A model generated the notes under the pieces. It had not been told where the DNA came from, did not search any database, and was given only the letters and a program-made list of their open reading frames with translations. 35,348 bases of DNA, taken from a virus. A program made the position numbers and the translations under genes. Below are positions 8,344-35,348 of the stretch, one piece after another (position 1 is the stretch's first letter; every line of letters starts with the position of its first letter). The stretch is from positions 1 through 35,348 of the IMG/VR virus record IMGVR_UViG_3300037325_000526, one strand, 5' to 3'.

Positions 8344-8966
8344 CTGCGGATCTCCAAGAGCGGGATGGATGTGATCGATCCCAGCCGCTCAATATCGAGC
8401 GTGACGTCCAGAACATCCGTGTCAAAACGCACCGGCACATCGAATTCAAACCCGGCGCGGATGATCACGCCATTGGCGGGGGCTGTGGTGAAGGTGACGA
8501 CACCAGTCGTCGTGTCCACGGTCCAACCCGACATCTGCTCAACCATGCCCAGCGCCACGCGAACCGTGCCTGCCACCGGTTTGGCAATCGTGCGCGTCCA
8601 GCTTTGCGCGCCGGAGATATAGCGTTTGGTCAGCTGGAAGGTTTTCAGGCTGCCGGTGCCGGTCCCGATCTGCTGATCCGTGGAGGTGGTCGCCTGCGAT
8701 GGCAGACCCGACTTGTAATCTGCCCAATCCTTATAACGAAACCCGTGCAGGCGACCGTTGCGGGCCTCGAAGAACGCAACCACCGCCGCCAGATCATCAG
8801 CGCGACGGATGCCATAGGCGACGTCATAGCGACGACGGCTGTTGGCCCAGCTGGCATTGCGTTCCTCATCGCCGCTCGCCAATTCGACAATTTGGGTGCG
8901 CCGTTCTGGCCCGCCTCGCGCGCCGCGGCTAATATTGTCGGGAAACCGAACCTCGTGAAACGCCAT
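8340..8966 (-). CDS. DUF2460 distal tail protein (GTA gp12-like)
   Basis: The 208-residue product carries the DUF2460 (TIGR02217) signature: MAFHEVRFP at the start, then WANSRRRYDVAYGIR, FFEARNGRLHGFRYKDWADYKSG and IERLGSI near the end. In the GTA it forms the distal tail ring that joins tube to baseplate. Start choice: a GTG at 8969 and an ATG at 8966 both follow GGAGG at usable spacing; ATG is preferred. The stop of the tape-measure gene overlaps this start, as expected for a coupled tail operon. Confidence 0.9.
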   Translation of the reverse strand: MAFHEVRFPDNISRGARGGPERRTQIVELASGDEERNASWANSRRRYDVAYGIRRADDLAAVVAFFEARNGRLHGFRYKDWADYKSGLPSQATTSTDQQIGTGTGSLKTFQLTKRYISGAQSWTRTIAKPVAGTVRVALGMVEQMSGWTVDTTTGVVTFTTAPANGVIIRAGFEFDVPVRFDTDVLDVTLDIERLGSITSIPLLEIRR

Positions 8967-11392
8967 CACATCCCCCTCCGACCAAGCGATACGGCGCGGG
9001 CGATGTCTGCTGCGACTTGGGTGCGCGATTGCCGGAAGCTTTCAGCGTCACGCGACATAATGGTCACCGAGATACTTGGCGCAGCACTCTGCCCTTGCCC
9101 GTAGCCAGCCGCCTCGCGTCGTGACAAAACCCGCTCGCCACGCTGGAGGATTGCCGGAACCTCATCTGGCTTGATCCCTGCCCAACCGCCCGCATGCATG
9201 CGCGAGGCATTGGCAAAGGCCATGGCGGGCACCATGCGTCCGGGGCCCGGTGATCCGACCACACCACCGGCGTGCAGGATATTCGCAAACAATCCACCCG
9301 CACCGCTCAGCGCACCAGAAAGTGCGTTGGCAATCGGCCCGAGGATGAAGCGCCGCGCCGCCAGTTTGGCAAGATCTGCTATCATCGAGGTGACGAGGTC
9401 GCGGAAATCCAGCTTGCCGGTTTTCACAAACTCACCGACGGCGTTTTCCGCCGAGGTGAAAGCACTGACCAGCGCGTTGCCGATGTCACCTCCAATGTCG
9501 CGTGCCTTGGCGGCGTAATCGGCGAGGGTCGCAACCGCCGCCTCCCATCCGGTCTTGGCCACTTCGGCCCCGGCAGCTGCTGCTGCCCCAGCGCCACCGG
9601 CGGCCCGCCCAGCCTCTGTCACGGACTCGTCCAGCCGGTCGGCAGCATCCGTCGCCCCGTTCAGCGCCGCTTCACCCTCTGTACCTGCGCCCGCAACAGC
9701 GTCTTTCAGCGCTTGCCAGCTTTGCATTGGCCTTGCGGCTGCATCGGCTAGCATGCCCGAGGCCTCGCGATACGCCTCGGCCCGGAATGTTGCGTCCTCC
9801 GCCATCCCAGTCAGACCGAGGTCCGGCGTGCTGACATAGGTCTGCGCCATTGCGGCTGAGAACGCTTCGGCGGCAGCGGTGCCGGCAGCGGCGGCGGATC
9901 CTGCAAACGGATTGTCGATCCGGCCCAGCGCGACTGGATCCAGCGTGCCGATCTTGACGCCACCTTCGCCCACGGCCCAATCGGGCAGCAGGTCCAGCGC
10001 GCCATTCAGCGCGTTGATGAAGTTGTTGATCCGGGTGACAACGCCGTTCAGCATGGCCTCGACGCCACCGATCAGCCCGTTTGCGGCCTGAAACGCGAAA
10101 TCCCCAATCGCACCGGGCAACTGGCCCCAGATCGCCTTCACTGCCTCATAGGCACCCTTGAAGATGCCCGCCGCCGAGTTACCAAAGCTGGTCACCGCCT
10201 CCACTGATGACTGCATCGCGCCATAGATGGTGGCTTGCAACCCTGCCCAACTGGCCTCGATTTTCGACCAAGCCGAATCTGCACCCAGACCAATTCGGTC
10301 CCAGACCTCAAGGGCCAGATCCTTAAGCAGGCCAATCGCTGCGCCAAATCCACCCGCGCCCGCGACGAGCCGGGTGAACTGAAACACCAACTCGCCCGCG
10401 CCGACGATCAGCGCGCCAATCCCCGTGCGGATCAAGGCGCCGCGCAGGAACACGAGGCCGGTGGCCAGCCCGCGCACTGACAAGGCTGCAGCCGCCAGAC
10501 CCGTCACCCAGCGCCCCGCCATGAGGGCAGCAAACGTCGCGGCATAGGTGGTCAGACGGCCAATGTTGTCGAACAGGGCTGTGATCGCGATCCCAATAGG
10601 GCCAGTGCTGCGCGCCATGTCCGCCAGCGCATTGGCCACAGCCTCCAGCGCCGGGGCTGCGGCGACCGTCAGACGGTTGGTCAAGCCGATCCAAATCAGG
10701 CTGAGCCGCGCGATGGCATCGCCGGTGCGTTCAATCTGGGATGCATCGCTGGCACTTACGGCCACACCGAAATCGCGGACGTCTTGCGCCGCTTCCCGTA
10801 GCGTGGCAGAATCGATCCGCAGAAACGCGAGCGCGGCTTTGTCACCAAAGAGATCAGAAGCCACTGCCGCGCGCTCGGCTTCGGGGACAAACTGGTTCAG
10901 CGCCTCCTGAATTGCGATGATGCGCTGGTCGAGTGGCATCGCCTGCAATTGTGCCGCCGTGAGGTTCAACCGCTGCAACGCCCCCACAGCGGATCCTGAT
11001 CCGGTCGCGGCCTCGGACAGCCGAGTGGTCAGTTTCTTGGTTGCCTGTTCGATCTCGCCCATGGAGACACCGGCCAGTTCCCCGGCCCATGTCAGTGTCT
11101 GGACGCTTTCCACCGTGGTCCGCATCGACTGCGCCAGCTTCGCCTGCGCATCGACGTTGGAAAGGCCCGAGCGGATCATCGCCACGCCAGCCGCCGCCGC
11201 AGCGACGGTCACCGCCGCCAGCGCGATCCCCGCCTTGCGGGCAAAGCTGCCAAGCCGAGCATTGGCCAGTTCCATCTCTGACGACAGACGGCCAAAGCCG
11301 CGCGCGCCAGCGTCCCCGATGCCTTCCAACTCGGCACGCACCTGGCGGCCGCCCTCGGCCACTAGGCGGACGGAGACGCGTTTTTCAGCCAT
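8966..11392 (-). CDS. Phage tail tape measure protein
   Basis: The 808-residue protein sets tail length and is expelled during DNA entry. It is rich in Ala and Gly and largely helical. It begins with a short beta-rich segment (VSVRLVAEGG), then a hydrophobic helix at about 55-75, a tape-measure core with several hydrophobic segments at about 245-350, and a C-terminal region with HAGGVVGSPGPGR and ILQRGERVLSRRE, typical of phage tape measure C-termini. It is several times longer than the short tape measure of R. capsulatus GTA, so a conventional long siphovirus tail is expected (about 0.12 micrometre at the usual 0.15 nm per residue, an estimate). AAGGA lies about 10 bases before the ATG. It is head-to-head with the AbrB/PIN cassette. 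Confidence 0.92.
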   Translation of the reverse strand: MAEKRVSVRLVAEGGRQVRAELEGIGDAGARGFGRLSSEMELANARLGSFARKAGIALAAVTVAAAAAGVAMIRSGLSNVDAQAKLAQSMRTTVESVQTLTWAGELAGVSMGEIEQATKKLTTRLSEAATGSGSAVGALQRLNLTAAQLQAMPLDQRIIAIQEALNQFVPEAERAAVASDLFGDKAALAFLRIDSATLREAAQDVRDFGVAVSASDASQIERTGDAIARLSLIWIGLTNRLTVAAAPALEAVANALADMARSTGPIGIAITALFDNIGRLTTYAATFAALMAGRWVTGLAAAALSVRGLATGLVFLRGALIRTGIGALIVGAGELVFQFTRLVAGAGGFGAAIGLLKDLALEVWDRIGLGADSAWSKIEASWAGLQATIYGAMQSSVEAVTSFGNSAAGIFKGAYEAVKAIWGQLPGAIGDFAFQAANGLIGGVEAMLNGVVTRINNFINALNGALDLLPDWAVGEGGVKIGTLDPVALGRIDNPFAGSAAAAGTAAAEAFSAAMAQTYVSTPDLGLTGMAEDATFRAEAYREASGMLADAAARPMQSWQALKDAVAGAGTEGEAALNGATDAADRLDESVTEAGRAAGGAGAAAAAGAEVAKTGWEAAVATLADYAAKARDIGGDIGNALVSAFTSAENAVGEFVKTGKLDFRDLVTSMIADLAKLAARRFILGPIANALSGALSGAGGLFANILHAGGVVGSPGPGRMVPAMAFANASRMHAGGWAGIKPDEVPAILQRGERVLSRREAAGYGQGQSAAPSISVTIMSRDAESFRQSRTQVAADIARAVSLGRRGM

Positions 11393-11462
11393 GGAACAGG
11401 ATCCTTGAAATTTGGAGCAGGGTGTCTTACGTTTATCTTATCGATCTAGAGAGGGTATGATC

Positions 11463-11675
11463 ATGTCAGAGACAGCCACCCTGTCCACAAAGTTTCAAAT
11501 CTCTATTCCCAAGGCGATCCGCTCAGCCCAAGCTTGGGAGGCAGGGTTAACCTTTGCCTTCATCCCCAAGGGAACAGGTGTTTTGCTTGTGCCCATCCCG
11601 AAGCGGGATGCGCTGAAGGGTCTCGCCCAAGGGGCAAACGGGACAGACTATCGTGATCGACAGGACCGCTTTTGA
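11463..11675 (+). CDS. vapB: AbrB/MazE-type antitoxin of a VapBC-like module (cassette 1)
   Basis: This is a 70-residue DNA-binding antitoxin. The N-terminal STKFQISIPKAIR pattern is the swapped-hairpin AbrB fold; the C-terminal tail (LAQGANGTDYRDRQDRF) is the expected toxin-blocking arm. The ATG at 11463 is preferred over upstream in-frame ATGs because the AbrB fold starts here and AGAGAGG precedes it. It overlaps the toxin by one base (TGATG). The gene lies on the plus strand inside the minus-strand phage tail operon, between tape measure and tail chaperone genes. It probably represses its own promoter in the 70-base gap to the tape-measure gene. Confidence 0.85.
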   Translation: MSETATLSTKFQISIPKAIRSAQAWEAGLTFAFIPKGTGVLLVPIPKRDALKGLAQGANGTDYRDRQDRF

Positions 11676-12055
11676 TGGTCCTCGTCGACACATCGGCTTG
11701 GATTGAGTGGCTGATAGGGTCCCCAACCGGGGACAAACTGACAAAGCATCTTCCGGAGCAAGCGGATTGGCTTGTGCCGACGATGGTGCAGTTGGAACTT
11801 GCAAAGTGGCTCACGCGTGAGGTCGGGGAGGACAAGGCCGATCAGGTGATCGCTTTTACGCAGGTCTGTCAGATCGTCCCGCTCGATACCGAGATCGCGC
11901 TTGGCGCGGCCGACGCCTGCCGCATCCACAAGTTGGCAACGGCAGATGCCATCATGTTTGCCACGGCGCGGGCGCGTGGGGCGACGCTGCTGACCTGCGA
12001 CGCGCATTTCGAAGGACTGCCTGGGGTCACCCTGATCGAGAAGATCAAGAGCTGA
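11675..12055 (+). CDS. vapC: PIN-domain ribonuclease toxin, VapC-like (cassette 1)
   Basis: This 126-residue PIN nuclease probably cleaves a cellular RNA when freed from its antitoxin; the target cannot be read from sequence. The acidic residues of the family are present: D5 in VDTSAW, E41 in QLELAKW, D91 in ATADAIM and D109 in LTCDAHF, so the active site looks intact. The ATG overlaps the antitoxin stop by one base, so translation is coupled. Its last 11 bases overlap, antisense, the end of the frameshifted tail chaperone gene, which means the cassette and the phage gene share their 3' ends. Confidence 0.88.
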   Translation: MVLVDTSAWIEWLIGSPTGDKLTKHLPEQADWLVPTMVQLELAKWLTREVGEDKADQVIAFTQVCQIVPLDTEIALGAADACRIHKLATADAIMFATARARGATLLTCDAHFEGLPGVTLIEKIKS

Positions 12056-12724
12056 CGCCAGAGGTGCCGTTATCCACAATCTGCTCGTTCAGCTTTCGCA
12101 CCATCACGGCCTCGATTTCGGGCAGCAGTTCGGCGGCGATCAGGGTGTCGATGCCCAGCGCGGTCGCGAGCGCCAAGGCGGCCCCCATATCCCAGCCCAA
12201 AACTGCGCCGGGGATCACCCGCAATTGTCCACCGAGGCGGCCGACCAGATCCCAGATCTGCCAGCCCTCTGGTGTCTGCGGCCTATTCAGTTTTGCGGGG
12301 CAGTCCGGGCACGGCCCCGCGCAGGCGGCGCAGTAGCGATCGCCCCCGCCGAAGGACCACTCGGCGAGGGCGCGGAGCCGTTTTTTTCTGCGTCCAGGAT
12401 GAGGCCGCGTGCGACATATTGGGTCTGGAAGGCCTCAAAGACCGGCCAGAATTCCAAAAGGGCGTTGATGCCTTCGGGCGTGACGGGCACAATTGTGCCC
12501 GTGTCATCCCCCACACCTTCCCAATCCAAGACAGCCCGGCGGGCGACAGCTTTCGCCATGGTGAGGGCAAGTTCCTCTTGGGTGGAGGTGTCTGACATTG
12601 CCTCAATGGCCGGATCCGCGCGGGCCGAGACCATCAATGTAGTGGTCAGAGGTGCCACCAGCAAGCGCAGGCCCGGGGCAAGCTCAAGCCATTGCGGCGC
12701 GGCAGTCAAGTTCAGACGGATCAT
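12045..12724 (-). CDS. Tail assembly chaperone, long -1 frameshift product (gpGT-like, DUF7697-like C-domain)
   Basis: The minus strand carries an A AAA AAC heptamer at 12386-12380, in register with the short chaperone frame. Slipping back one base there opens a second frame that runs 111 further codons to a TGA at 12047-12045, giving 226 residues in total. The extension reads RLRALAEWSFGGGD, then a C-x2-C-x3-C-x2-C cluster (CAAC, CPDC), then TPEGWQIWDL and LGWDMGAALALATALGID. This resembles the DUF7697-type proteins that follow tail chaperones in Rhodobacterales phages. The extension lacks a good start of its own near its beginning, which supports frameshifting. A 6-bp hairpin (CGCCGA/TCGGCG, 12366-12347) lies 13 bases downstream of the heptamer. 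This is the lambda G/GT arrangement; the long form would recruit the tape measure. Frameshifting itself is inferred. Confidence 0.8.
12287..12724 (-). CDS. Tail assembly chaperone, short product (gpG-like)
   Basis: This is the frame-0 product, 145 residues. Residues 1-115 form the conserved part (LDWEGVGDDTGT, VTPEGINALLEFWPVFEAFQTQYVARGLILDAEKN), similar to phage tail chaperones of Rhodobacterales. Residues 116-145 are a low-complexity Ser/Pro/Ala/Arg tail translated past the slippery site and probably carry no fold. The ATG at 12724 has GAAAGG 7 bases upstream. In siphophages this protein coats the tape measure before the tube assembles and is absent from the virion. Its leader contains the T-run of the terminator of the DUF1186 gene, so its expression needs read-through or antitermination. 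Confidence 0.85.
   Translation of the reverse strand: MIRLNLTAAPQWLELAPGLRLLVAPLTTTLMVSARADPAIEAMSDTSTQEELALTMAKAVARRAVLDWEGVGDDTGTIVPVTPEGINALLEFWPVFEAFQTQYVARGLILDAEKNGSAPSPSGPSAGAIATAPPARGRARTAPQN
12380..12386 (-). promoter_or_regulatory. Programmed -1 ribosomal frameshift heptamer A AAA AAC
   Basis: On the minus strand, codons GAA AAA AAC (residues 113-115 of the chaperone) form the canonical X XXY YYZ slippery heptamer. A -1 shift joins the short chaperone frame to a 111-codon open frame with strong coding character, including Cys-x2-Cys motifs. It occupies the position expected for the G/GT slip site of long-tailed phages. Confidence 0.8.
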
Positions 12725-12807: not shown

Positions 12808-13707
12808 TTACTGCAGGCAGCATTTCTTGAACTTCTTGCCGCTGCCACAAGGGCAGGGATCATTTCGCCCAGTTTTCCCGGTGAAGACGCTGTTGAACGG
12901 GTCACCGGCTCGCGGCATCAGGGATGACAGCACGTTCAACCGCCCTGAAGCCTTCTTGGCCAGGTATTCCGGAGTGAAGCAGTACCATGGCTCAAGTTCC
13001 GCGATGGTGTCGGTGATCAGGGTGTTGCTCGAGGAATTGGTAAGCCATTCAGGCCGTCCGGCATCCACCGTTCCCTGAAGCCGCTGTGTAAAGTCCTCGA
13101 TGCGGCTATGATCGGGCGCAATCAGCCCCTTGTCGAACACGGCGCGCACCGAAGGTTCCAGATCCACCAGCCCGAGAGCGGCGATACATTCGGCCCATGC
13201 CCACCAGATCTCTTCGCCGGTCACGTGGCCTGTCAGGTCGAAGAAGTCGACCAAGAACGCCGTGATGCGGGGCCGAAGCTCGGGATCCTCCAAGGCAAGG
13301 ATGGCCAGCGTGTCAAACATCTCGCCGCGTACAAAGCCGTCGGCCTCGTCATCCAGGACGATGTCGAACAGTGGCTGCAAATCACCATCAAAAATCCCCG
13401 CCAAGACACGGGCCGAGGCTTCGGTGATCAAATCCCCCAGCAGGGCATCCAGAAACGCCGGATCGCGCCGAAGCAGTGTTGCGAGGGGCCGATAGGCCTT
13501 GGTCTCGCGCCATTCGGCGAGCAGAAAGAAGATGAACACGGAGGCACCCATGCCCTCGAGGTCGTCGATCTTTGCCGATTGCAGTTGGTCGATGTGGTCC
13601 AGAAAGACAGGCACCATGGCGTCGCGGGATGTCCCTGCTGCCTCCAACGCTTCGCGCGGCAGGGGACCGGTGGCTGCCAATGCCGTCATGATTTCGGCGG
13701 GTGTCAT
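12808..13707 (-). CDS. DUF1186 protein with C-terminal SEC-C zinc motif (cargo gene)
   Basis: This 299-residue protein has helical repeats typical of DUF1186 (for example VRGEMFDTLAILALEDPELRPRI and TGEEIWWAWAECIAALGL) and ends in a SEC-C motif, CPCGSGKKFKKCC, which binds zinc and often mediates binding to ribosome- or SecB-type partners. Its function is unknown. It is not a tail gene: it separates the tail tube from the tail chaperone and is followed by its own strong terminator. This is the layout of a moron, a gene expressed independently from a prophage. AAAGG lies 8 bases before the ATG, and a palindrome lies just upstream. Expression in the lysogen is inferred, not shown. Confidence 0.88.
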   Translation of the reverse strand: MTPAEIMTALAATGPLPREALEAAGTSRDAMVPVFLDHIDQLQSAKIDDLEGMGASVFIFFLLAEWRETKAYRPLATLLRRDPAFLDALLGDLITEASARVLAGIFDGDLQPLFDIVLDDEADGFVRGEMFDTLAILALEDPELRPRITAFLVDFFDLTGHVTGEEIWWAWAECIAALGLVDLEPSVRAVFDKGLIAPDHSRIEDFTQRLQGTVDAGRPEWLTNSSSNTLITDTIAELEPWYCFTPEYLAKKASGRLNVLSSLMPRAGDPFNSVFTGKTGRNDPCPCGSGKKFKKCCLQ

Positions 13708-13795: not shown

Positions 13796-14734
13796 TCAAT
13801 AGCTCACAATGCTGTTGATAAGGACGGCGGTGCACATGCGTGCGGGGCTGATAGCCTTGGCAGCTTGCCAGTCAAAACTGGCCTGCACGCCTTGGGGCCC
13901 CGCGATCTCAATCCGTGGGCGGGGCAGGTAGACGGCATGGGCGGTGAAGGTGAAGCTGGCATTGGCCCCGAGGCTGTAGTTGAATTCCAATTCGCAAGGG
14001 CTGCCATCGATGGCTTGGGTCACCAGCGTCGTGTCGGAAAACCGGACCTCAATGCGCCCGGTGAGTGCTGCCATGGTCGGGTCGGCCCCATCGATACGAC
14101 CGTCGCCACGGATGGTCTCGATCCGGTCAAGGTTGTTCGAATAGGTGATTTCGGCCGACACCACGTTGCCCAGCGCAGTGCCATTGCGTTTCACCGTGCC
14201 GTTGAAATGGCCGAAGCGCTGAAGGCTCAACGCTGTCGGTGTGCCTGCGGCGGTAACGGCAGCGATGGCCTCACCCTGCGCCACCAAACGCGCTGTCGCG
14301 GTCAACAGGCCGGAGCGTTGCATCTGCCAAGACAATTGGTCGAGCACGCAGCCGGAATACATCGCGAAACGCGGCACCTCGGGCATGGCCGTCTCAATCG
14401 ATAGGCTGGGCAGGGTCCAGTTGCCTGACTGGAAGGCATGAGTCTTGGGCGTGGTGCCGCTGGTGGTCGGTTGGCCGAACGCTGCTTTCAACCAATAGCC
14501 GAACGCCTCGACATCGATGGGGATCACCACTTCTCCGTCGGCGGTCACCGCATCCTTGATCGGGGCCAGGGGATCGCGGCCATAGCCCAGCAGCTCGGAC
14601 TCCAGCAAAGGTTGTTCTGACCCGAGCGTTGTCCGGGCAAAGGGCATCAGCCGGAACCCACTCACCGGCGGGGAGCCGTAAACTGTCTCATACGCAAGCG
14701 CCATCTGCGCCCGCGCGCCTTGCGCACGTGCCAT
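13796..14734 (-). CDS. Phage tail tube (major tail) protein
   Basis: This 312-residue protein probably polymerises into the tail tube. It is beta-rich, with an N-terminal stretch (ALAYETVYGSPPVSGFRLMPF) and internal segments (VVIPIDVEAFGYWLKAAFGQP, NNLDRIETIRGDGRIDGADPTMAALTG) seen in phage tail tube proteins of alphaproteobacteria. The C-terminal part (YLPRPRIEI onward) may be an added immunoglobulin-like or decoration segment. AAGGAG lies 6 bases before the ATG, a strong ribosome site that fits an abundant structural protein. It lies between tail terminator and chaperone genes as expected. Confidence 0.82.
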   Translation of the reverse strand: MARAQGARAQMALAYETVYGSPPVSGFRLMPFARTTLGSEQPLLESELLGYGRDPLAPIKDAVTADGEVVIPIDVEAFGYWLKAAFGQPTTSGTTPKTHAFQSGNWTLPSLSIETAMPEVPRFAMYSGCVLDQLSWQMQRSGLLTATARLVAQGEAIAAVTAAGTPTALSLQRFGHFNGTVKRNGTALGNVVSAEITYSNNLDRIETIRGDGRIDGADPTMAALTGRIEVRFSDTTLVTQAIDGSPCELEFNYSLGANASFTFTAHAVYLPRPRIEIAGPQGVQASFDWQAAKAISPARMCTAVLINSIVSY

Positions 14735-15271: not shown

Positions 15272-15556
15272 ATGAACGCCGTCCGCCCCATCGCCGTGAA
15301 GCTCGATCAGGATACCCGCGACCGCCTCAAGCGGCTGGCGGTTGCCAAGGATCGCTCCACGCACTGGATGCTGCGCGAGGCTGTGACGCAGTTCGTCGAG
15401 CGCGAAGAGAAGCGCGAGGCGTTCAGGCAGGCCGGTTTGCTGGCTTGGGAAGACTATCAGGCCACTGGTAGGCACGTTACGCATGACGAGGCCGATGCCT
15501 GGCTTGCCAAGCTGGAAGCAGGCGAAGAGGCCGAACCCCCTGAATGTCACAACTGA
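15272..15556 (+). CDS. parD: ParD/CopG-type ribbon-helix-helix antitoxin (cassette 2)
   Basis: This is a 94-residue antitoxin. The N-terminal ribbon-helix-helix is clear (RPIAVKLDQDTRDRLKRLAVAKDRSTHWMLREAVTQFV across about residues 4-42), followed by a helical toxin-binding tail (VEREEKREAFRQAGLLAWEDY onward). It overlaps the toxin gene by 13 bases. GGAG precedes the ATG by about 9 bases. The gene is on the plus strand within the minus-strand phage operon and probably autoregulates from the 89-base gap, where GGTAATACC is a small dyad. Confidence 0.88.
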   Translation: MNAVRPIAVKLDQDTRDRLKRLAVAKDRSTHWMLREAVTQFVEREEKREAFRQAGLLAWEDYQATGRHVTHDEADAWLAKLEAGEEAEPPECHN

Positions 15557-15834
15557 TCTGGTCACCCGCCGCGCTGCGGGATGTCGAGCGCCTGCATAAG
15601 TTCCTTGCCGAAAAGAACCCTGAGGCCGCCCGCCGTGCGGCCAAATTCATCCGTGAAGGCATGCAGATCTTGCGCGATCAGCCCGGAGTTGGTCGACCGG
15701 TTGATGACATGGAGCCGGAATTTCGCGAGTGGTTCATCACCTTTGGCGACAGCGGCTATGTGTCCCTTTATCGGTTCGACGGTGCGACGGCGGTGATCCT
15801 CGCCATACGCCACCAGCGTGAGGCAGGCTATTGA
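15544..15834 (+). CDS. parE: ParE/RelE-superfamily toxin (cassette 2)
   Basis: This is a 96-residue toxin of the ParE/RelE fold. The pattern WSPAALRDVERLHKFLAEKNPEAA, then RDQPGVGRPV, EFREWFI and VILAIRHQREAGY is typical of ParE-type toxins, which usually poison DNA gyrase; some relatives cleave mRNA, and sequence alone does not decide. The toxin start lies inside the end of the antitoxin gene, so expression is coupled. Its stop codon is only 16 bases from the stop codon of the convergent DUF6441 gene. Confidence 0.88.
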   Translation: MSQLIWSPAALRDVERLHKFLAEKNPEAARRAAKFIREGMQILRDQPGVGRPVDDMEPEFREWFITFGDSGYVSLYRFDGATAVILAIRHQREAGY

Positions 15835-19886: not shown

Positions 19887-20138
19887 ATGCAGGAATCAAC
19901 CGTGACGATCAAAGGCCAGACGACCTTGCCCCGCGATGTACGGGCAGCACTTGGCCTGACCAGCGGGGACCGGGTGCGTTATGTCATCCTCGACGGCGAG
20001 GTCCGCATCCTGAAGGCCCGCTCGGTCAAGGAACTGCGCGGGGTGCTGGCGCGCCCGGGTCAGACCCCCGTGACGCTGGAGACCATGGACGAGGCCATCG
20101 CCAGCGGTGCCGCCGCAAGCATGATGCCTGATCCGTGA
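19887..20138 (+). CDS. vapB: AbrB-type antitoxin of a VapBC-like module (cassette 3)
   Basis: This is an 83-residue antitoxin. The N-terminal swapped hairpin is clear (STVTIKGQTTLPRDVRAALGLTSGDRVRYVILDGEVRIL). The C-terminal arm (PVTLETMDEAIASGAAASMM) is of the type that wraps PIN toxins. AAGG lies about 10 bases before the ATG. It overlaps the toxin start by GTGA (4 bases). The 80-base gap to the divergent protease gene must hold its promoter; there AGGAC-TG-GTCCT (19808-19819) forms a dyad that could be an operator. It shares little sequence with the antitoxin of cassette 1 beyond the fold. Confidence 0.88.
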   Translation: MQESTVTIKGQTTLPRDVRAALGLTSGDRVRYVILDGEVRILKARSVKELRGVLARPGQTPVTLETMDEAIASGAAASMMPDP

Positions 20139-20533
20139 TCGCCGTTGATACCAATGTGCTGGTGCGCTTCCTTGTGCAGGACGACGCTGATCAGGCCCGG
20201 ATCGCGGGCGATATCTTCGACCAGTTGACGGATACTGAGCCTGGCTTTGTCAGCCGCGAGGTGTTGATCGAACTCGTTTGGGTTCTGGAGCGCGCCTATG
20301 GATACGGGCGCTCGGAGATTGCGGGGGCAATGGATGGGCTGTTGTCGTCGACCGAGGTGCGGATTGAGGCGGGTGATGATGTCGGGTCCGCGCTGGATCT
20401 TTACCGCAATGACGGCTTTGGCTTTGCCGATCTGATGATCGCCGCCGCTGCCCGGCGCGCAGGTGCTGCCGAACTTGTCACATTCGACCGGAAAGCTGCG
20501 AGATTGCCCGGGGTTCGGTTGTTGCTGGGGTAA
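20135..20533 (+). CDS. vapC: PIN-domain ribonuclease toxin, VapC-like (cassette 3)
   Basis: This is a 132-residue PIN-domain nuclease with a full acidic set: D5 in AVDTNVLVRF, E46 in VLIELVWVLE, D99 in GFADLMIAAA and D118 in LVTFDRKAA. It starts with GTG, overlapping the antitoxin stop by 4 bases. Its stop codon (20531-20533) directly abuts the stop codon of the convergent portal gene (20534-20536), with no base between them. It diverges in sequence from the PIN toxin of cassette 1, so the two modules are unlikely to be a recent duplication. Confidence 0.9.
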   Translation: MIAVDTNVLVRFLVQDDADQARIAGDIFDQLTDTEPGFVSREVLIELVWVLERAYGYGRSEIAGAMDGLLSSTEVRIEAGDDVGSALDLYRNDGFGFADLMIAAAARRAGAAELVTFDRKAARLPGVRLLLG

Positions 20534-31054: not shown

Positions 31055-34000
31055 CTAGAGCTGTCCGCCAACTCCTTTAAACTTCTCCACAAACGACGAA
31101 ATCTTTTCAAATACAGTCGCTTTTCTATCGCGAAATTGCGGATGCAAAGGGCTCATTCTGGGCAAAATGCTATTCAAATCAGCCCCATTTTCACTTGCGA
31201 ATTCGCGTTTAATCGAGGCTGAAATATAACGTTTGGCAGCTTCTGAGTTCAGATTCTCTGACTGTATAAGCGCCTCTACCTCTCGGGTTTTCTCTCCTTG
31301 CGCAAAAGCGAAGAACGCATCAATGACACTTGCCTTGTCGCGGAACAGATCAAGGTCCGTCTTGTTGATGAAGTCGATCAACAAACTCTCCTTTGCACGG
31401 CTACCCAGACTCGCGCGAATGACGCGGCGGGCATCTTCAATCAGATCGCCCTTGTCATGCGTTTCTCGAGCTTTCTCGAAGATTAGCCCGAGAATATAAT
31501 CTAGGTTTATTTCCTGAGATTTCAGGAGCTCAACTTCAAAGACCACATCATCCCAATTTACGACGAGCTTGTCTTTCTCTTCAGACGCCTTCTCGCGCCG
31601 CAGCCAGTCCCGAATGTCATTGTAGGTTGACCTGTAGTTTTGCACCTTTCGCTCAGTCGGTAATGGAACCATGCGCAAGGCGTCGACGCCATCATCCGTC
31701 AAGTGGTGGACTTCTTTGAACTTCCTCAGCGCCGTTTCGTCATTGGCGTCTATGTCATTCAAGTTTTGCAGTGCTGTAAATTCATCGTAGTTCCGAAGAA
31801 TGTTCTCAATCTTGAGATACTCACCGAAAACCTTGACGAAGTCCTTCTTGTCGGCTTCTTTAACTATTTCATCTGGGTCGGGAAATCGATCTTCAAGTTC
31901 ACGGACGACTTCAATAAAACCACGGCGTAAGGCTCCAGTTGCATGATCTTGAAAGCCATTCAAGTATTCATCGTAGCTCTTTTCCAGCACCACATTCTTT
32001 GTGTTTTTATCCCCAAAAAGTGTAATCGCATCAATGGTGGCCTGTTCAATATCCCGAAATGCAACGATATTGCCGAACGTCTTTGTCGCGTCAAAAATGC
32101 GGTTTGTTCGTGAAAAGGCCTGAATAAGGCCATGGAAGCGCAGGTTTTTATCGACAAAAAGCGTGTTGAGTGACGGTGCGTCAAATCCTGTAAGGAACAT
32201 ACCCACCACGATTAATAGGTCGATCTCTTTGGCACGAACGCGGTTGGCCAAGTCACGATAGTAGTTTTGAAAACCAAGGCCATCGACGCCAAAGTTTGTT
32301 TTGAAATAGGCGTTGTAATCGGTAATGGCGGCGCTCAGGAACTCCTTAGCGCTACTATTCATGGCCGATACATCGAAGCCTTCGTCTTGAATATCGCCGA
32401 TTGCATCTTGTTCCTCATTGGCTGCAAAGGAGAAGATTGTGGCGATTCTGAGCGGCTTTTCCAACCCAACCTGTAATTTCCTCAAGGCTTCGTAATAGGC
32501 CTTAGCCGCATCAACACTGCTCACCGCGAACATTGCATTGAAGCCGCTGCTGCCCGCGTGCATTCGGTGGGTTTTGTGTTTAAAGTTAGTCAGAATGTAA
32601 TGAGAAACCTCGCGAATTCGCTCTGGATGCAGCAAAGCTTGTCTGATTTCCGCCGAACTTAGCTTTTTCTCGTCTTGTTCTACTTCAGCAGCTTTGAACT
32701 GAGGGCGTACATCGTTGTAGTCGACTTTGAACTTCAGAACCTTTTCGTCGCGAATGGCGTCAGTGATCACATAGGAATGCAGCTCACGCCCAAACACGCT
32801 GGCGGTCGTTTCCGCTCCTAAAGCATTCCCCTTTCGGATCAGTCTACCATCAACGATATCATCTCCAAAAATTGGCGTTCCGGTAAATCCAAATTGACAA
32901 AAGCGTTTGAACTTCTTTTTCAGGTTCTTTTGCGCTTCGCCAAATTGGCTGCGATGGCATTCGTCAAAAATGAACACCACTTGTTGGCCGTAGACGGGAA
33001 GGTCAGCCTCGCCCTTCATCAAGTTGTTCAATTTTTGAATCGTGGTGACGACGATCTTATTGTCGTCCTTTTCCAGATTGCGCTTCAAGCCAGCGGTGCT
33101 GTCGGAACCGTTCACGCTATCAGGCGAAAACTTCTGGTATTCCTTCATGGTTTGATAGTCGAGGTCCTTGCGATCCACGACGAAGAACACCTTGTCGATG
33201 TACGGCAGCTCTGTAGCAAGGCGCGCAGCCTTGAAACTGGTGAGCGTTTTGCCCGATCCAGTAGTGTGCCAGACATAGCCACCGCTTTCGGCTTTGCTCC
33301 AACCCTTCGCCTCGAAGGTAGATTTGATCTTCCACATAATGCGTTCAGTGGCGGCGATTTGATAAGGACGCATCACTAGCAGAGTGTCGCTGGCGTCAAA
33401 CACCGAGTATTGCAGCAAAACGTCCAGCAAGGTGCGCTTTTGCAGAAAGGTCGCAGTGAAATCTTTCAGGTCTTTGATCAAACCATTGTCCGACTTCGCC
33501 CAGTTCATGGTGAAATCAAAGCTGTTTTTGTTCCGCTTGGTCGTATTGGCAAAGTAGCGGGTATCGGTGCCGTTCGAGATCACGAACAACTGCAGGAACC
33601 TGAACAGCGAAGTTTCGCTGTTGAAGCTCTCTTTGCTATAGCGGTGAATCTGGTTGAACGCCTCACGGATGGCCACGCCGCGCCGTTTCAGCTCAACTTG
33701 CACCATCGGCAGGCCGTTCACTAAGATTGTCACATCATAGCGATTGGCATGGCTGCCAGTTTGCTCGAACTGCTTGATTACCTGTAACTTGTTACGCGCC
33801 TTGTTGCGTTTATCCACCAGGTGGATGTTCTGAATGCGCCCATCGTCAAAAACGAAGTCATGGATGTGATCATCTTGAACCTTGCGGGTCTTCTCGATGA
33901 TGCCGTCGCTTGGCTTGTCCAGATAGGCCTCAACAAACCGCTGCCATTCATCTTCGGAAAAGGTCACAGTATTCAGCGTCTGTACCTGCACCCGCACATT

Positions 34001-34198
34001 GGCGAGCATATCCTCCGGCGTTGTGAGAGTGCTCAGAAACTCGTAACCTTGATCCTGCAAGTCACGGATCAGTTCATTTTCCAGATCAGTTTCGCTTTGA
34101 TATCCGGCCGCAGCGCCCCAATTGCTTTCATAGCGGTCAAGGACGATGAAGTTCTTCGATTCCGCGATGGTTTTTGTTTCTTCAACCATTTTGCGCAT
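31055..34198 (-). CDS. hsdR: Type I restriction enzyme R subunit
   Basis: The 1047-residue protein is the translocating and cutting subunit of a type I restriction system. The PD-(D/E)xK nuclease lies near the N-terminus ([23 protein letters not shown]155, E169, K171). The helicase motor follows: Walker A TTGSGKT (about 312-318), Walker B DECHRS (about 412-417), and motif [11 protein letters not shown] (about 436-443), with a second RecA domain including [21 protein letters not shown]. The C-terminal helical region is expected to contact HsdM. It overlaps the preceding gene by 17 bases. Two starts are possible: ATG 34198 (AAGGA only 2 bases upstream) and ATG 34189 (11 bases). Its base composition is visibly lower in GC than the prophage. 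hsdM and hsdS are not in the window. Confidence 0.93.
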
Positions 34199-35348
34199 CT
34201 TCCTTCACGGTCATTCTGTATCGTTCCGAAAACTCGTATTTTTTGTTGGCCATAGTGCCCAAAAGGTATCCCAAGACTCGCTTGTCATCTTTTGAGAGGT
34301 GCGGCTGCTCGTCTCCAGCGTGCTTTGAGTGGCTGGAAATATCGATAATTCGCTTCAGATAGGCGTCGCCAGTGCCGTCTGCGGTTAGAGGCAACAGGTC
34401 TGCCCAGTCATTATACCCCATGAAGGTTGATGTCTTCTCCAAGATATTTCTCAACAGATTGTAGTGGTATTTTTCAAACCCATCAGAATCGTGCGCAGCC
34501 TTCAGTTTCTCGATTAGATGTAAATGGTAAGCGAATGGGCTATCGGTGTTCCATTGCTCCAAAGTGAAACTGCCATCTTCATTCTGAGATAATTGATACT
34601 TCAGGCCATTTTTCAGCGCGTTGAATAAAACGTTAAAGAATAGCGGATTGTGAGTCGCTATGATAAATTTTGGCCCATCTTGTGGTGCAGATTTGATCAG
34701 CGTTGCTAAGTTTTGGGCAAGCTCGATCAAGTGATTATCATCGAGGGAACTGACAGGATCATCAATGAAAACATACTCGAGTTTGTTGAACAGATTGGTG
34801 CTTCGCCCTTCTGCTACTGGAACACTTAGAACAGAGACCACCTCTTCGATCAAAGTGTAGAAGACGCTCCAGATGAAGTTGCTTTCTTCGCCTTTTGAAA
34901 TCTTGATCCCTGTCGTGGCATTGTCATCGCCTGTTGCTATGGTGAATGCGACTGAAGGGTAGGTCTTTAGACCTGCCTTTGTTGCATCTTCTTCCATGAA
35001 GATTGGGGTAAGGGTCTTCTTCGTATAGTGCTGAAAGTTTGCAATGATCTCGTTACCCTTGCCCTGTTCGCCAAGAATCCAATCGGTGAAGCTATTGGGC
35101 TGGATCATCAGCTTTGGCTCAGCATCTCCAATAAGATCATTGTCCCAATAGAAGAGGTCTTCGGTGAAGGCGTTGTAGTAAAGGATTTTCTGGCGCGAGG
35201 GTTCGGCCTCTTCGCCTTCAACCGTGGGCGCAATAAGGTCCTTCATGGCGCGGGATAGGCGAGTCTTGCCTGTGCCGTTGAAGGCATAGATCAGTTGCAC
35301 CTTTTTGTTCACCGCGTGCAGTTGCTCGGCAATTTCTTCAAGCTTCAT
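34182..35348 (-). CDS. ABC-type ATPase with C-terminal RNase-like residues, PrrC-type anticodon nuclease candidate
   Basis: The 388-residue protein begins at the window edge with an ATG that looks like its real start. Residues 1-245 form an ABC/SMC-type ATPase: Walker [10 protein letters not shown] (21-29; first Gly replaced by Ala), signature-like ISKGEES (150-156), Walker [15 protein letters not shown] (191-204) and H-loop IIATHNP (229-235). The C-terminal 140 residues are helical with R300 and E304 in LLRNILE and H340 and H343 in SSHSKH. EcoPrrC, an anticodon nuclease of 396 residues encoded between hsdS and hsdR, uses an Arg-Glu-His triad with the same Arg-Glu spacing. Position directly before hsdR, size and these residues support a PrrC-like RNase that would kill or arrest the cell when restriction is inhibited. 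A generic ATPase without RNase activity remains possible. Confidence 0.7.

Follow-up and report, generated by a model that had tools for sequence, protein, structure and literature searches.

A tail assembly chaperone gene of the lambda G/GT type with a conserved slippery heptamer and a Cys4 motif in its T-domain

We are highly confident that the locus described here is a tail assembly chaperone gene of the lambda G/GT type, in which ribosomes would slip at a heptamer backed by a hairpin, the longer product GT would recruit the tail tube, and the T-domain carries a Cys4 loop that probably holds a metal. The sequences themselves display the heptamer, its register, its conservation, a switch in the frame under selection, the potential to form a hairpin, the invariance of the cysteines, a predicted fold and the order of the genes. 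The window, meaning the whole stretch of DNA that was analysed, is the 35.3-kb (35,348 nt) IMG/VR virus record IMGVR_UViG_3300037325_000526, and its minus strand contains a siphovirus tail operon. These are its relevant features.

12287..12724, minus strand: G, the short tail assembly chaperone, frame 0, 145 aa (115 aa before the slip and a 30-aa tail)
12380..12386, minus strand: slippery heptamer A AAA AAC, at codons 114-115 of G, in register
12341..12372, minus strand: predicted stimulatory hairpin, 13-bp stem and 6-nt loop, 7-nt spacer from the heptamer
12045..12380, minus strand: T-domain in the -1 frame, 111 codons and a stop; GT would be 115 + 111 = 226 aa
12300..12332, minus strand: Cys4 motif C-x2-C-x3-C-x2-C, T residues 17, 20, 24 and 27
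12072..12218, minus strand: match to DUF7697 and PHROG_11212, starting at or beside an internal GTG (12218-12216)
12287..12379, minus strand: frame-0 tail of G past the slip site, pN/pS 1.71, no protein-level selection
13796-14734: tail tube gene (Phage_tube_2, E 3.4e-57)
8966-11392: tape measure gene (Tape_meas_lam_C)

Lambda and many other phages have a G that binds the tape measure protein and, more rarely made, a frameshifted GT by which the tail tube is recruited (PMC5009743, PMC4493119). Slipping, how often it happens, the client proteins and the binding of a metal are what we infer for the window from this precedent and from the features above. Most ribosomes would stay in frame 0 and make G. 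The hairpin beyond A AAA AAC would pause a minority of them, and these would move one base backwards, where tRNA-Lys and tRNA-Asn pair anew with AAA AAA, and go on to make GT. By analogy with lambda, the tape measure protein would be coated by G, and tail tube subunits would reach it by way of the T-domain of the rare GT. As modelled, this domain appears to resemble the tail-chaperone models of other phages, with its first and second helices flanking the Cys4 loop. Of A AAA AAC and A AAA AAG, the latter is the stronger slip site in E. coli (PMC5009743), so GT may be rare.

The gene order is that of the lambda G/GT type: G/GT has the tail tube gene on one side and the tape measure gene on the other. 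The stop of GT overlaps the start of the tape measure gene (offset -8) in 179 of 229 loci, which have no insert; in the window a cassette intervenes. It consists of a small gene (11412-11675) and a PIN-domain gene (11672-12055, E 1.8e-19) on the plus strand, antisense to the operon. The two genes are probably a toxin-antitoxin pair of the VapBC kind, and the last 11 nt of GT overlap the PIN gene. Related cassettes occupy the same site in 37 fetched loci (not deduplicated), and in HK97 the corresponding position is taken by moron gene 15. Between the tail tube gene and G lies a minus-strand gene for a DUF1186 and SEC-C protein (12808-13707), separated from G by a terminator-like stem (12772-12747). 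It looks like a moron and is found at the same place in nine fetched loci. Two more plus-strand pairs lie antisense in the structural genes. One is an RHH and ParE toxin-antitoxin pair (15272-15556 and 15544-15834) in the head-tail operon, also present in relatives; the other is an antitoxin/PIN pair (19887-20138 and 20135-20533) that had no match in the fetched loci, most of which end short of that region. At the end of the window a minus-strand type I restriction enzyme R subunit (31055-34198) is followed by the incomplete reading frame of another protein (34182-35348), and this end is possibly host DNA or a defence cassette.

An earlier note, made from the sequence alone, placed the heptamer at 12386-12380 of the minus strand, in the right register at codons 114-115, and these coordinates are correct. 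The site is read as GAA AAA AAC (E113 K114 N115), in the X XXY YYZ register. AAAAAAC occurs once in the 35-kb window where 2.4 occurrences are expected by chance, so its mere presence is unremarkable; what takes the case beyond chance is the position of the heptamer, its register and its conservation in relatives. Relatives were gathered from IMG/VR, GTDB genomes and phage records, as the best 80 matches per search, a choice which favours close relatives, though most of the distant ones show the same. Among the matches listed there are 191 non-redundant loci, and in 190 of these the equivalent position has a canonical heptamer (A AAA AAC in 184, G GGA AAC in 5, A AAA AAA in 1), but most are closely related, so the independent events are far fewer than 191. 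The lone exception is a contig with a broken heptamer, A AGA AAA C (L073/L175). More distant genomes have A AAA AAC (L263, L268, L270) or G GGA AAC (L264, L265), and one distant homologue (L266) is without a canonical heptamer. Codon choice is also instructive: elsewhere in G lysine is encoded by AAG 228 times versus 79 for AAA, and yet Lys114 is always AAA where the site is A AAA AAC.

The run of A could join the two frames by another route, since there are seven consecutive A in the window and such runs can make the polymerase slip, so that no ribosomal frameshift would be needed. We consider this transcriptional route very unlikely. The relatives with G GGA AAC at the same place have no long run, L107 has just six A and still keeps the heptamer, and a stem 7 nt downstream fits the pausing of ribosomes. 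Still less can be said for a sequencing error or a pseudogene of one long gene. An isolate genome, Roseisalinus antarcticus (L002, 2147-2830; L149), does have both parts in one frame by virtue of an eighth A, and where the G and T fragments were mixed around this natural fusion in L002 they were misaligned. But almost every relative shows the -1 relation, phages and isolates among them, and purifying selection acts on both parts; the breadth of this conservation refutes such a reading, to which we give practically no weight. In TP901-1 a permanent fusion gave particles that look normal but are non-infective (PMC4493119), so the R. antarcticus prophage may be defective; alternatively its extra A may be an assembly or sequence error.

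Selection changes frame at the heptamer. In a set of sequences chosen to contain it, the variable sites fall at frame-0 third positions upstream and at -1-frame third positions downstream. The same is seen in 161 sequences chosen without regard to the heptamer: pN/pS is 0.36 for G upstream of the slip; within the overlap it is 0.29 in the -1 frame versus 1.71 in frame 0; and past the frame-0 stop it is again 0.29 in the -1 frame. This bears out the statement that the -1 frame, which stays open for 111 codons until a stop whose last base is 12045, is coding. The frame-0 tail of G is a low-complexity sequence, as had also been stated. That 30-aa tail is unconstrained, given its pN/pS, and it is almost missing in L249-L251. 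The earlier note had likened the locus to lambda G/GT and proposed to look for synonymous-site conservation and -1 continuity in related prophages; the comparative data do support a programmed -1 frameshift. It had also said what would count against one, a homologue without the heptamer whose C-terminal frame is a gene with its own start. None was found among the relatives, the exceptions to the common pattern being L073/L175, L002/L149 and L266.

A separate gene deserves discussion in its own right, because family databases appear to describe one. The -1 frame has no ATG, GTG or TTG from the preceding stop until the GTG at codon 55, as had been noticed from the sequence, and a start there would give a DUF7697 protein of about 57 aa and make the heptamer incidental. 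Pfam and PHROG indeed contain such a family, with models that begin at residues 55 and 53, and 159 of 200 loci have the GTG. In the remaining 41 that codon is not ATG, GTG or TTG, the same purifying selection acts in the -1 frame on the preceding 54 residues, Cys4 among them, from the slip site onwards, and the heptamer and hairpin would be left unexplained. We judge a separate gene to be highly improbable, and a frameshifted T-domain remains our reading of this frame. The expectation that a gene caller would miss it has to be modified: the family models point to calls from the internal GTG that yield a stub of ~52 aa, and in Rhodobacter phages the system is already annotated.

The hairpin, which the earlier note did not mention and which most relatives retain, lies within 50 nt that fold at -29.2 kcal/mol (z -2.76). 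When the -1-frame peptide was held fixed and its codons were redrawn by local usage, 0.2% of the recodings folded as well as the native sequence (p = 0.002). The folds of RcKemmy, RcDormio, the cyanophage type, L250, L251 and L253 likewise exceed their own nulls (fractions 0 to 0.03). Across 130 sequences 94.0% of the cells in the helix are paired versus at most 57% for slid versions, a count that favours this helix since it was named from the window's own fold. RNAalifold on all 130 sequences gave a weak consensus only, and two stem pairs have changes on both sides. Such double changes are few because the stem also codes, and covariation alone is no proof of the structure. Nor is the hairpin universal: L255, L256 and L257 keep the heptamer with folds no better than their own nulls, and L258, nearly identical to L256 in this region, keeps the heptamer and probably not the stem. 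A search of Rfam gave no match at the locus.

The protein families agree with the assignment of G. It matches PHROG_313, "Tail assembly chaperone" (E 9.7e-26). The AlphaFold2 models of G and T, made separately, have pLDDT values of 87.6 and 88.4. The top second-look match of the G model is the HK97 tail assembly chaperone 2ob9, a modest one (Z 4.8, 92 aligned, rmsd 5.0) that heads only four chains with Z of at least 2. Among the viral models nearest to that of T are those of tape-measure or tail-assembly chaperones from F20, Solomon, Loki and Shivani, all phages (TMq 0.57-0.63, with weak Foldseek E of 0.009-0.2). Foldseek of the T model against the PDB found no convincing match, and profile searches of solved-structure sequences with T and with G found no significant one. 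Chorismate mutase was considered as a fold match for T and set aside, its best VIA-align Z of 3.9 not being meaningful.

Pfam DUF7697 (PF24752) matches T residues 55-103 with E 1.1e-27 and 96.2 bits against a curated cut-off of 27, so the DUF7697-like segment reported from the sequence is real; 45 of 46 T homologues match at E <= 0.1. PHROG_11212 matches residues 53-103. Judging from the sequences, both families are almost certainly the back half of the T-domain. They were apparently built from reading frames started at the internal GTG, and the true domain would begin at the slip site; their models lack the first ~54 residues of T, including Cys4. DUF7697 was not mentioned in the literature searched. 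Pfam DUF1799 (PF08809) matches 18 of the 46 T-domains weakly (best E 8e-5; the window's own match, E 0.13, is not significant) and on that similarity is probably a distant relative; a search for it in Loki and RcKemmy gave no match, and the positive controls gave none either. Two side observations belong here. PHROG_680, a model of 98 positions that bears the name "tail length tape measure protein", weakly matches 29 of the 46 T-domains, best 1.8e-5, and may be a T-domain family under the name of its neighbour. The Rhodobacterales genomes G001 and G007 have four DUF7697 matches each, which suggests several prophages with this type of tail per genome.

The most distinctive part of the T-domain is its Cys4 motif. 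The columns of Cys17, Cys20, Cys24 and Cys27 are invariant in 46 diverse T homologues with identity down to 35%, as are R1, W8, F10, G13, Y16, G39, W43 and G76. Every complete homologue retains four cysteines at this end of T. In the same 161 sequences as above, a set picked by a Cys4 pattern, the codons vary only between TGC and TGT and never to another residue. Unselected evidence comes from the listed loci, where the simple pattern with a loop of 3 or 9 occurs in 185 of 191 and one more has a loop of 2; of the remaining five, three keep four cysteines in another spacing, the fourth is broken by a stop and the fifth has ambiguous bases. Distant forms alter the spacing of the last two cysteines. 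The earlier note was right about the motif at the start of T, and its zinc cluster is one possibility only.

Tail chaperones act in the reducing cytoplasm. Four invariant cysteines with variable loops in a cytoplasmic assembly factor make metal binding likely, and on this sequence evidence Cys4 probably binds either Zn2+ or an Fe-S cluster. Phage tails offer a precedent in the hub of roseophage R4C, where four cysteines coordinate an Fe-S cluster (PMC10276861). The cysteines might instead be structural or form disulfides and bind no metal, and it speaks for this that just 2 of the 46 homologues match a zinc-ribbon model, Zn_ribbon_6, and only weakly (best E 0.043). We think this unlikely, since the invariance of all four residues amid variable loops suits a metal site and the reducing cytoplasm speaks against disulfides. 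If a metal is bound, one possible but doubtful extension is that the T-domain is a metal-dependent chaperone module, in which a Zn2+ or Fe-S site in GT would control the folding of the T-domain or the recruitment of the tail tube and so couple tail assembly to the metal or redox state of the cell. In a bolder, purely speculative form of the idea Cys4 would help deliver an Fe-S cluster to the hub of the same tail. Titles and abstracts on tail assembly chaperones with zinc or cysteine revealed no metal-binding one.

Comparison with known systems separates what is old here from what is new. Eleven Rhodobacter capsulatus phages with homologous T-domains have two overlapping tail-assembly-chaperone annotations under the match, and RcKemmy and RcDormio, the two records opened of the 11, give the longer one as a joined CDS; most of that phage set has the frameshift (PMC8601537). 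RcKemmy (MW677517 genes 15/16) and RcDormio (MW677510 genes 15/16) share with the window a homologous G and T (T ~54% identical), the four cysteines at the same columns, the hairpin and the position before the tape measure gene, but their slip site is G GGA AAC and they have no toxin-antitoxin cassette or SEC-C gene at the locus. Lambda G/GT and HK97 gp13/gp14 also have a frameshifted chaperone between the tail tube and tape measure genes, and HK97 gp13 is the top structural match of the G model. Unlike the window, their T regions are without Cys4, and no sequence similarity to them was detected in the solved-structure search. Acinetobacter phage Loki gp12/gp13 has the AAAAAAC motif, a joined CDS and a T-domain among the nearest structural models, but that region is without any cysteine. 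A search of the T region of F20 did not find the Cys4 motif either.

The frameshift mechanism is thus of a known kind, and the locus is a well-supported and widely conserved further case of the G/GT system. What the present analysis adds is Cys4, the hairpin and the reading of DUF7697; Cys4, and DUF7697 and PHROG_11212 as the back half of the T-domain, appear to be unreported. Two families of unknown function would become the T-domain of frameshifted tail chaperones, for which gene callers should join the frames. The group of tail genes carrying the window's T-domain is large and mostly alphaproteobacterial. If Cys4 does bind a metal, it would be a new and testable element in how the T-domain acts in the phages of Rhodobacterales and their relatives.
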